Origin: an uncultured Flavobacteriales bacterium | Lineage (GTDB): Bacteria; Bacteroidota; Bacteroidia; Flavobacteriales_G; Salibacteraceae | Reading direction: 5' to 3' | DNA: 64,000 nucleotides | Assembly: GCA_937121175.1 (NCBI GenBank) | Contig: CAKZKD010000027.1 | Location: 1 to 64,000 of the forward strand | In this document: one piece after another, positions 16,455 to 46,921 of the stretch | How positions within the stretch are numbered: position 1 is the first letter of the stretch | Layout of the letters: the number at the start of each line of letters is the position of its first letter | Translations under genes and position numbers: made by a program | The notes under the pieces: model-generated | Database searches by the model: none | What the model was told of the DNA's origin: nothing | Seen by the model: only the letters and a program-made list of their open reading frames with translations

Positions 16455-16491
16455 AAAAAAAAAGCTCAATTCCGTAATGAAATTGAGCTTT
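16455..16491 (-). terminator. Strong intrinsic terminator of the candidate small RNA
   Basis: A perfect 11-bp inverted repeat (AAAGCTCAATT at 16461-16471 with AATTGAGCTTT at 16481-16491) and a nine-base loop, followed on the minus strand by nine consecutive T (16463-16455). The + strand side is weaker (TTTAAATTTTT), so the main direction is minus. Confidence 0.85.
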
Positions 16492-16557
16492 AAATTTTTG
16501 ATTTTCGATTTGGGACCTGAGGTTCCCTCTGCTTGTGTAAACACAAACCCTATACAG

Positions 16558-16673
16558 AGGGAGGTCCCAACCAACCAATCTTGAATATCTAAAAGTAGCT
16601 TTCTGTTTTTTTAGGACCTTGAGTCCCTTCAGTAATAGGGTGTACCGAAGGGAGGTCCCAACCAACCAATCTT
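16558..16673 (-). repeat. 25-base direct repeat, two copies, within the small RNA
   Basis: Bases 16558-16582 and 16649-16673 are identical over 25 positions, spanning the 3' arm of each hairpin on the + strand plus the adjoining CCAACCAACCAATC. The stretch between the copies is not repeated, apart from the paired arms that fold back on each copy. Confidence 0.9.
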
Positions 16674-16711
16674 TGAAAACTACTGTTTTCTGCTTTGTTA
16701 AAGAACTGGCG

Positions 16712-16740
16712 CAAATGTAATTCTTTTTTTATCCCTCACA
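16712..16740 (-). promoter_or_regulatory. Promoter of the candidate small RNA
   Basis: Read on the minus strand, TGTG (16740-16737), a 17-base spacer and TACATTTG (16719-16712) match the Bacteroidota -33/-7 consensus (TTTG, then TAnnTTTG) with one mismatch. The expected start of transcription is near 16705. It lies entirely between the stop of the Hpt gene (16753) and the first hairpin, so the RNA does not need read-through from that gene. Confidence 0.55.
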
Positions 16741-16752
16741 CGATTTTAACTT

Positions 16753-17094
16753 TTATTTAATTTCTTTTTTTAATTCGGCACACAGGACTGGTAATTCTTC
16801 ATTCAACTTGGTTATCAACACTGGAATTTGGTCCATATTGGTTTGTTTTCCGGAGTATTCATTCAGATCCATTATAGTCTGTTTCAATCCATTTGCGTGC
16901 ACTACTAAAATGGAAGGTTTTATCTTGTGTGCAAAAAACTTCACTTGCTTCCAATCACTTGACTTTAACGCGAGATTTAACTCCTCAAGATACTGAGTAT
17001 TGTTGGTAACAAACAACTCAATCATTTCTTTTAAGAATGATTCATCGTTCCCACTCATCTCTCGTATTTCTGATAAATCGTATAACTTTTCCAT
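16753..17094 (-). CDS. Hpt-domain phosphotransfer protein
   Basis: A 113-residue all-alpha histidine phosphotransfer protein. The phosphorylatable His is at about residue 56 in FFAHKIKPSILVV, the Hpt signature (A-H-x-x-K-x-S). It would carry a phosphoryl group between receiver domains in the cytoplasm. It starts one base after the stop of the sigma-54 response regulator gene, so the two are almost certainly co-translated and functionally paired. No histidine kinase is encoded in the window, so the kinase (probably a hybrid one) must lie elsewhere. The reading is firm for the domain; the direction of phosphotransfer is not shown. Confidence 0.85.
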   Translation of the reverse strand: MEKLYDLSEIREMSGNDESFLKEMIELFVTNNTQYLEELNLALKSSDWKQVKFFAHKIKPSILVVHANGLKQTIMDLNEYSGKQTNMDQIPVLITKLNEELPVLCAELKKEIK

Positions 17095-17095
17095 A

Positions 17096-18439
17096 TTAAT
17101 TCAGTTTAACCTCTCCATTTTTAATTAATCGATAAATAGTCGATTTACCCACATCCAGTTTTTCAGCAACCCTTACAACATTACCATTATTTTTAATAAG
17201 ACTGTGTTGGATTATTGCATTGGTATATTCCCTTAGGGTCTTTTCTTCTAACAATAAATCAGAGACACTAGAAGTTGAATTCAACGTGATATCCTTTTCT
17301 TCAATAGTATTTGCATCAGCAAGAATTGTTGCTAATTCAATTACTGCTTTTAATTCTCTTACATTTCCAGGCCATGGGTATCGCATAAGCTTAATTTTCG
17401 CTGCTTTGGAAATCAATTTGGGTTCTATTTCATTTTCTTGTGAAAATTCATCACTAAAATGTTTTGCGAGTGAATAGATATCACTTTTACGCTCCCGCAA
17501 GGGAGGCACGTGTATAGGTAAGCCTAAGATTCTGTATAGCAAGTCATTCCTAAAATTCCCTTTTTCTACTTCCTTGTTTAAGTCCTTATGTGTCGCGACA
17601 ATAATTCTTAATTTTAATTTTATAGGTTTATTTGCACCTACCCTTACCACCTCTCGTTCTTGGAGTACTCGTAAAAGTTTGGCCTGCATCGGAACTGGCA
17701 ACTCCCCAACTTCGTCCAGAAATAATGTACCACCGTTAGCTTCTTCAAACTTCCCAATCCGTTGCTGATCGGCTCCGGTGAATGCTCCTTTTTCATGGCC
17801 AAACAGTTCGGTTTCAATTAATTCTACTGGAATCGCCGCCATGTTTACCGCAACAAAGGGTTTATTTGCGAATACGGAATTGTAATGTATCGCTTTTGCC
17901 ACCAACTCTTTTCCTGTTCCCGTTTCACCAGAAATCGAAACAGTAATATTGCTTGAGATAGCTTTATTCATTTTGGCGAAAACCCGTTCAATTTCTTGAC
18001 TACCACCTTTTATTAAACTTCGAAAATTGTATTTTGAATAAACGGCATCTGAAAGATGTTCAATTTCTTTCTCAAGGTTCACTCTTTCACTCAGATGACG
18101 CAGTGTATTGTGCAGATGCTCTTTCGTATCATCACCTTTTACTACGTAATTAAACACGCCATTTTTGAGTAATTGAACAGCAGTACTCACGTCCTCCTGC
18201 GCAGAGACGACAATAATGCTCGACCTTATCCCCTTCAATCTGAGCTGCTTTATCAATTCTTCACAGGTTAAATCTGGAAGGGAATAGTCTAGTGAAACAA
18301 CATCAAACTCTTTGACTGAAGAGTCTAAAAACTCTGCTCCATCTTTAAAGCAAGTAACATGGTACGAGGCAATTAACTCTATTATATGTTGAAGATACCT
18401 TCTGTAAAAATCATCATCTTCAACAACCGCAATTCTCAT
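17096..18439 (-). CDS. Sigma-54-dependent response regulator, NtrC family
   Basis: 447 residues in three domains. The receiver domain (1-~120) has acidic DDD at 8-10 and phospho-acceptor Asp at about 51 in VVSLDYSLPD. The AAA+ domain (~145-370) has Walker A GETGTGKE (172-179), the sigma-54 contact loop GAFTGAD (219-225), Walker B GGTLFLDEVGE and an arginine-finger segment FRNDLLYRILGLPIHVPPLRER. The C-terminal Fis-type helix-turn-helix is NGNVVRVAEKLDVGKSTIYRLI. Phosphorylation should allow hexamer formation and opening of sigma-54 promoters. It forms a two-gene unit with the Hpt gene. Its targets are unknown; I saw no clear GG-N10-GC -24/-12 element beside the neighbouring small RNA. Confidence 0.93.
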   Translation of the reverse strand: MRIAVVEDDDFYRRYLQHIIELIASYHVTCFKDGAEFLDSSVKEFDVVSLDYSLPDLTCEELIKQLRLKGIRSSIIVVSAQEDVSTAVQLLKNGVFNYVVKGDDTKEHLHNTLRHLSERVNLEKEIEHLSDAVYSKYNFRSLIKGGSQEIERVFAKMNKAISSNITVSISGETGTGKELVAKAIHYNSVFANKPFVAVNMAAIPVELIETELFGHEKGAFTGADQQRIGKFEEANGGTLFLDEVGELPVPMQAKLLRVLQEREVVRVGANKPIKLKLRIIVATHKDLNKEVEKGNFRNDLLYRILGLPIHVPPLRERKSDIYSLAKHFSDEFSQENEIEPKLISKAAKIKLMRYPWPGNVRELKAVIELATILADANTIEEKDITLNSTSSVSDLLLEEKTLREYTNAIIQHSLIKNNGNVVRVAEKLDVGKSTIYRLIKNGEVKLN

Positions 18440-46071: not shown

Positions 46072-46752
46072 TTATGCGTTTAGAAAATGAAATACAGCAA
46101 TCGTAACGAATCCAAGTGGAACCATAATCGCATAAATGTCACCCAATTTTTTAATCATTGGCGTGTATTTGTTGTGTCTAAAACCTACCGACTGAAAAGC
46201 CGACTGAAACCCATGTAACAAGTGAAGTGCTAGAAACAAAAACGATACTACGTAAAGCCCTGTTCTAATCGGGTCATGAAACTTATGTTGCAATTCTTCG
46301 AAATAACGAAACTCGCCGGCAGCATTGAGTCCTGACATATCGCCTTGAATGAACTTTACATTTAACTCTGGCAACCAAAAATCATAAAAATGCAGCCCTA
46401 AGAAAAGCATAATCATAATTCCTGTGATAATCATATTTCTGGACATCCAAGTTGCGTTTTCACCGGGTTTGTTCATCGCATATTTTACTGAACGTGCATT
46501 GTTGTTTTGCAATTCAAGCATAATTCCCATTCCTAAATGAAATACAACCCCAAAGGCCAAAACAGGTTGCAAAGCGAATTGCACCATTGGATTTGTTCCC
46601 ATGAAATGAGATACTGTGTTAAACATTTCGGGAGAGATAACCGACAGCATATTAATTACACAATGCTGCAATAAAAACACAAGGAGGAAAAAGCCCGAAA
46701 GAGCCATAAAAAACTTCCTTGTAATTGACGTCATTCCGTTCGTTGTTGACAT
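46072..46752 (-). CDS. sdhC: Succinate dehydrogenase cytochrome b subunit
   Basis: About 226 residues with five membrane helices, the single large diheme cytochrome of type B succinate:quinone oxidoreductases. The start at 46752 gives MSTTNGMTSITRKFFMALSG, the usual beginning; an upstream in-frame ATG at 46869 would add 39 basic residues unlike the family. Helix segments include FFLLVFLLQHCVINML, VLAFGVVFHLGMGIML and VVSFLFLALHLLHGFQSAF, which carry the histidines expected to bind the hemes. It leads the sdhCAB operon and lies divergent to pepP. Confidence 0.92.
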   Translation of the reverse strand: MSTTNGMTSITRKFFMALSGFFLLVFLLQHCVINMLSVISPEMFNTVSHFMGTNPMVQFALQPVLAFGVVFHLGMGIMLELQNNNARSVKYAMNKPGENATWMSRNMIITGIMIMLFLGLHFYDFWLPELNVKFIQGDMSGLNAAGEFRYFEELQHKFHDPIRTGLYVVSFLFLALHLLHGFQSAFQSVGFRHNKYTPMIKKLGDIYAIMVPLGFVTIAVFHFLNA

Positions 46753-46921
46753 AGGATTTTTTGTTTTTTGTAATTGAGAACAAATGTAACCGCTGGTTAG
46801 TTTTGGCTTTGTTTTTACAGTTTTTATCTTTCTTTTTTGGAATGATTCTAAATAACCAAAAAACTTCAAGTATACTGGGAATAAGAGCTTGTCTTAAGCC
46901 TTAATTATTGACTGAGAATGA

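Follow-up and report, generated by a model that had tools for sequence, protein, structure and literature searches.

The 64,000-nt window analysed here (the whole stretch of contig whose first lines stand above) contains, on its minus strand, two identical motifs that each open a long hairpin between promoter-like and terminator-like sequences, raising the question of whether the locus encodes an RNA with a conserved fold and what such an RNA may do in the cell. The sequence-only reading of this DNA had proposed a complete small-RNA gene of conserved structure, a proposal supported by homologues in six genomes that combine compensatory changes, a conserved -7 box and terminator-like repeats with no conserved ORF.

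Gene anatomy and predicted transcript ends

As read from the window sequence, the gene is complete, occupying 16719-16455 on the minus strand and specifying an RNA of ~253 nt (Table 1). Its -7 box, TACATTTG, fits TAnnTTTG, the housekeeping -7 consensus in Bacteroides and Flavobacterium (PMC7366714, PMC9723704), and is aligned as TANATTTG in all six homologues. Of the -33/-7 promoter read earlier the -7 half stands, and the -33 box is weak, unconvincing and not conserved; a scan of the locus for E. coli-type promoters gave no match, as expected since the phylum is Bacteroidota. Published -7 spacing places the probable transcription start at ~16707 on the minus strand, with an RNA that would begin AGUUCUUUAACA; this start and the predicted 3′ end at 16455 agree with the ends of 16705 and 16455 put forward previously. 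The two 25-base motifs were correctly described as identical and as opening hairpins, and so was the terminator with its nine T; each homologue is likewise followed by an inverted repeat of terminator type and a run of T, with differing stem sequences. No conserved reading frame was found in the RNA or its hairpins: the longest frames differ among the six sequences, and length differences between homologues break reading frames. Together these features point to an independent untranslated RNA, presumably transcribed from a promoter of the housekeeping sigma factor and ended by an intrinsic terminator.

Table 1. Positions of the features discussed, in window coordinates
Feature	Positions	Strand	Remarks
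Response regulator with sigma-54 AAA domain	17096-18439	minus	Beside Hpt in 4 of 6 carriers
Hpt-domain gene	16753-17094	minus	Upstream; adjoins RNA gene in 6 of 6 carriers
-7 promoter box TACATTTG	16712-16719	minus	Fits Bacteroidota housekeeping consensus TAnnTTTG
boxA-like GTTCTTTAACA	16696-16706	minus	About +2 from inferred start
Helix P1, 5′ strand AGUAGUU	16678-16684	minus	Pairs with 16600-16594; encloses hairpin 1
25-mer AAGATTGGTTGGTTGGGACCTCCCT, copy 1	16649-16673	minus	Single-stranded UUGGUUGGUU, then GGGACCUCC
Hairpin 1	16613-16659	minus	Outer stem GGGACCU/AGGUCCU invariant; inner stem covarying; ACUCA bulge; loop CACCCUAU
Loop 1 CCCUAU	16635-16640	minus	Proposed kissing partner of 16553-16548
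Helix P1, 3′ strand AGCUACU	16594-16600	minus	
25-mer AAGATTGGTTGGTTGGGACCTCCCT, copy 2	16558-16582	minus	
Hairpin 2	16512-16568	minus	Outer stem GGGACCU/AGGUCCC invariant; inner stem covarying; AACCUC bulge; apical UUGUG/CACAA stem
Hairpin 2 internal bulge AUAGGG	16548-16553	minus	Proposed kissing partner of loop 1
Intrinsic terminator	16455-16491	minus	13-bp stem, loop of 5, nine T
Terminator stem; T run	16491-16461; 16463-16455	minus	

Three features were absent from the sequence-only reading, namely helix P1, a kissing contact and a boxA-like 5′ end. The word GTTCTTTRA, to be compared with the boxA consensus GYTCTTTAANA of gamma-proteobacteria (PMC5725501), lies 3′ of the promoter in five of the six homologues (G002 has GTCCTTAAT instead) and recurs in the rrn leaders of G000, G001 and G014. 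Genome-wide, the boxA word after TTTG occurs at background frequency, so that its conservation at the RNA locus is the sole evidence of its importance. As in an rRNA leader, GTTCTTTRA stands at the 5′ end of the RNA, matching the rrn leaders of the same genomes; unlike in such a leader, it is found at ~+2 of a short non-coding RNA with no rRNA 3′ of it, where it would form a putative NusB/S10 site. A boxA-like end may shield this untranslated RNA from Rho, and the RNA may be a case of a boxA-like sequence outside rRNA operons in Bacteroidota. An extra short inverted repeat is present between boxA and P1 in the three more distant homologues (L004, L005 and L006; for example, GCTCCTAATTAGGGAGC in G005) and is missing from the same-genus sequences.

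Fold, covariation and a candidate tertiary contact

The 256-nt fold has a folding energy z of -6.6, with 0 of 200 shuffles as good. Where the earlier reading had named a lack of homologous hairpins and stem-breaking substitutions as counting against a conserved RNA, homologues are found in five other genomes and 99.7% of pair cells in the six-genome alignment pair in the drawn structure, a percentage favoured by construction, since the alignment was hand-adjusted (N placeholders were inserted in five of the six to bring the hairpins into register) and the six sequences were in view when the structure was drawn. Stronger evidence is provided by two-sided changes, seen for 13 of 51 pairs in one or more genomes; 0 of 500 shuffles equalled the structure on either value, and slid controls gave 38-52% paired cells and at most 3 two-sided pairs. 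The earlier observation that the inner stems differ and yet pair is thereby upheld: covariation seen only between the two copies of a single genome is slender evidence, and it is the comparison of six genomes that settles the pairing. From the unadjusted alignment, RNAalifold independently recovered P1 and hairpin 2, with covariation, and misfolded part of hairpin 1 at a misplaced gap.

Helix P1 includes three pairs changed on both sides, and the inner stem of hairpin 2 occurs as CCCUCUG/CAGAGGG, CCUCCUG/CAGGAGG, CCUCCCG/CGGGAGG and CCUCUCG/CGAGAGG. Among the six genomes the outer stems, GGGACCU/AGGUCC(C/U), are invariant and consequently silent on pairing by covariation, neither for nor against. 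In both units, conservation extends beyond the single-stranded parts to the bulges, the loops and the sequences of the outer stems; of the two bulges, previously given as 4-5 bases, one does have 5 nt (ACUCA, hairpin 1) and the other has 6 nt (AACCUC, hairpin 2). Mostly unpaired, by prediction, are UUGGUUGGUU, the bulges and, if no kissing contact forms, loop 1. The minus strand is identified as the functional one by 26 G-U cells as against 0 A-C cells, and no competition of a G-quadruplex with the fold was predicted. On this comparative evidence, the locus is a structured RNA gene with a conserved fold.

Pairing between loop 1 and the internal bulge of hairpin 2 is possible in all six genomes over 6-7 bp, with one U-A to U-G change (G002), and the kissing duplex, computed free, has an energy of -8.4 to -9.1 kcal/mol. 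Formation of this contact is plausible; its pairs are nearly invariant, which leaves it unproved by covariation.

The inner 5′ arms of the two hairpins (16647-16652 and 16555-16561) change in parallel between lineages, both reading CCCU in the genus and CCUC in the other three genomes. This parallel change suggests concerted evolution of the two units, which could reflect gene conversion between repeats or a shared partner. Swapping of arms between the hairpins was considered and rejected, the swapped pairings within a genome being weaker than, or at best close to, those of the hairpins themselves.

Distribution, neighbourhood and descent

A DNA search turned up clear homologues in five further genomes from the family, including two from the same genus; their titles denote Crocinitomicaceae/Flavobacteriales MAGs. 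The covariance-model scan that had been suggested with the original proposal detected the RNA once in each of 6 of 35 family genomes, and among 395 genomes of the class in two only, both members of the family. When about 85,000 species genomes were scanned by pattern, four known loci came up, along with one match in an archaeal MAG, dismissed as chance since the second unit is absent; the phages, plasmids and viral contigs searched held no copy of the RNA. The gene is single-copy in its carriers, each of which has exactly two copies of the 21-nt unit motif (up to 3 mismatches allowed); elsewhere in the family one 3-mismatch match to the unit, in apparent coding sequence of a related genome, was judged to be chance.

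In all six genomes the RNA is flanked by the Hpt-domain gene and by a convergent gene for a T9SS-sorted protein, followed by an ABC transporter gene. The Hpt homologues are 46-70% identical to that of the window, and in the more distant carriers the proteins of neighbouring genes, other than the ABC transporter, are down to 32-59% identity. Since the sigma-54 response regulator lies beside Hpt in just four of the six, and not in the same-genus G001 and G002 (L075, L076), which keep both Hpt and the RNA, the constant companion of the RNA is Hpt and not the regulator; conversely, response regulator-Hpt pairs lacking the RNA occur in G011, G016 and G020. The same-genus genome G003 has neither the RNA nor a close Hpt relative or CHU_C neighbour, and no divergent form of the RNA was seen in the regions downstream of distant Hpt homologues. 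In a tree of the CHU_C-domain neighbour, the six carriers fall on one side of a single branch with support of 100/100, so that one origin followed by vertical descent is the simplest history, and the RNA is apparently vertically inherited.

The earlier statement that no known family could be recognised agrees with the Rfam check, which returned no credible match for the RNA at gathering or relaxed thresholds: Rfam 15 at the gathering threshold yielded only a tRNA elsewhere in the window, and the best sub-threshold hit of the relaxed search, ohsC, reached 25.5 bits, where the gathering score is 50, and matched mostly over the terminator. Judged by sequence and predicted fold, the RNA is a new, lineage-specific small-RNA family, previously unnamed. 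Rfp18 of Flavobacterium psychrophilum resembles it as an independent, strongly structured, conserved and lineage-restricted flavobacterial sRNA (PMC9723704); unlike the present RNA, Rfp18 affects protease mRNAs, with pairing predicted via its third stem-loop (PMC9723704), and neither identical hairpins in tandem nor UUGG repeats were seen in reports on it, a distinction drawn from its description and not from its sequence. GibS and FopS of Bacteroides are likewise sRNAs of a phylum that is generally without Hfq, ProQ and CsrA (PMC11697453); FopS differs in consisting of a single-stranded 5′ seed and a terminator and in having many paralogues (PMC11697453), whereas the RNA described here has one copy per genome and is structured over almost its whole length.

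Function and competing readings

The folded shape of the hairpins has been kept across several related marine bacterial genera, and the RNA almost certainly has a cellular job for that reason. RsmZ and CsrB RNAs hold or titrate RsmA/CsrA by means of repeated hairpin units that display one binding site. The reading preferred here, tentatively and at a probability a little below even, is a comparable one, in which the structured RNA presents two copies of one protein-binding site. The RNA would fold into two near-identical bulged hairpins, with P1 closing in hairpin 1; the loop-bulge kissing contact would lock the two hairpins together and set the spacing of the two sites; UUGGUUGGUUGG and the bulged GGGACC hairpin, present twice, would form two copies of the site of one RNA-binding protein; and the RNA would hold or titrate that protein in the way that RsmZ/CsrB do RsmA/CsrA, with another protein and another motif. 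This reading is placed before base pairing on the grounds that dense conservation of stems, bulges and loops in two copies better fits a protein that recognises shape and sequence together, and the retention of the RNA sequence while neighbouring proteins diverged is counted in its favour; a search of the examined part of the genome for the RRM RNP1 motif gave no match, which counts against it. Repeated hairpin units that show the same presumed site several times are shared with RsmZ/CsrB; the repeated element is UUGG with a bulged stem here, in contrast to GGA in a hairpin loop in the CsrB type. A CsrA-sequestering RNA of the CsrB/RsmZ type itself was rejected, as GGGA lies at the stem base and not in a loop (loop 1 reads CACCCUAU, and the apex of hairpin 2 is a UUGUG/CACAA stem) and CsrA is absent from five of the six carriers, being encoded in G005 only (L114, G005:C4:90819-90974), the one instance among 35 family genomes. 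In most carriers, the partner supposed by the protein-site reading is not CsrA.

In a clade of six members, pairing with targets or the binding of a ligand could account for invariant sequence too. The main rival, a serious if somewhat doubtful contender, is a trans-acting base-pairing sRNA that alters the translation or stability of mRNAs by pairing its exposed UUGGUUGGUUGG repeats, or else its bulges and loops, with CCAACC-type sites in them, in the manner of GibS/FopS or Rfp18. Such sRNAs are documented in Bacteroidota, generally without Hfq (PMC11697453, PMC7366714, PMC9723704, PMC12119571), and the G/U-rich stretch is exposed, perfectly repeated and invariant. Target evidence leans weakly the other way: among CCAACCAACC sites sampled in three genomes, 3 of 39 precede start codons against about 2 expected by our own estimate, the three genes concerned are unrelated, no sampled site close to a start was conserved, and over 207 orthologous gene starts in two genomes the seed did no better than shuffled versions (20 of 30 controls were as good), in a screen that covered part of each genome with simple start calling and leaves room for seeds of <10 nt. 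The Hpt mRNA was discarded as a cis target, since its match beat shuffles in just a single genome. One of the top-scoring matches for the UUGG seed is a conserved CAAAACYAACCAGCG just upstream of a TTACATTTG promoter box, itself upstream of an sdhC-like gene (window about 46752-46800, minus strand), also found in the G001 orthologue; it probably lies outside the transcript.

In tandem riboswitch layouts, similar domains are set in tandem. The presence of two similar domains and a tertiary contact right before a terminator recalls this arrangement, and the RNA could be a tandem aptamer or attenuator-like small-molecule sensor ending at its own terminator; a downstream gene on the same strand is absent, however, the next gene being convergent in all six genomes, and unsystematic inspection brought to notice no conserved alternative partner for the terminator, which makes a sensor improbable. 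The RNA lies 3′ of Hpt, and on its strand, in each of the six carriers, which would suit a processed 3′ UTR by-product of the Hpt/response-regulator operon with no role of its own; yet the RNA possesses a conserved -7 box and a terminator to itself, is far better conserved than Hpt, and is missing beside the response-regulator/Hpt pairs of three related genomes, so this origin is the least credible of all. Hardly more credible is mimicry of the 16S 3′ end, by which ACCUCC would compete for Shine-Dalgarno-like sites or for anti-Shine-Dalgarno-binding proteins. The sequence-only reading had pictured UUGGUUGGUU exposed beside ACCUCC and this hexamer, as the anti-Shine-Dalgarno core, perhaps available for pairing. 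The six-base identity is real, ACCUCC occurring in both copies and, in two relatives, at the 3′ end of 16S (GGAAUACCUCCUUUUU), and UUGGUUGGUU is largely exposed; but ACCUCC is hidden by pairing within each hairpin stem, by prediction and conservation in all six sequences, its invariance is accounted for by pairing with AGGU and GG, and a few per cent of such RNAs would be expected to carry a 6-mer of this kind by chance. In addition, Bacteroidota ribosomes do not recognise Shine-Dalgarno sequences, according to a passage in PMC9976891.

Taken at its fullest, the protein-site reading would make the RNA a new protein-titrating class in bacteria that mostly lack CsrA, with two identical UUGG-repeat/bulged-hairpin sites in a pseudo-symmetric arrangement fixed by kissing, an rRNA-like 5′ end of boxA type and linkage to an Hpt phosphorelay gene, providing a route from signalling to RNA analogous to Gac/Rsm and built from unrelated parts; this whole is unlikely, if not negligibly so. 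Few structured small RNAs have been characterised in Bacteroidota, which are generally without Hfq, ProQ and CsrA, and with its well-supported structure, testable tertiary contact and two copies of a presumed site, the RNA would be a good bait for the RNA-binding protein on which such RNAs rely in this phylum.
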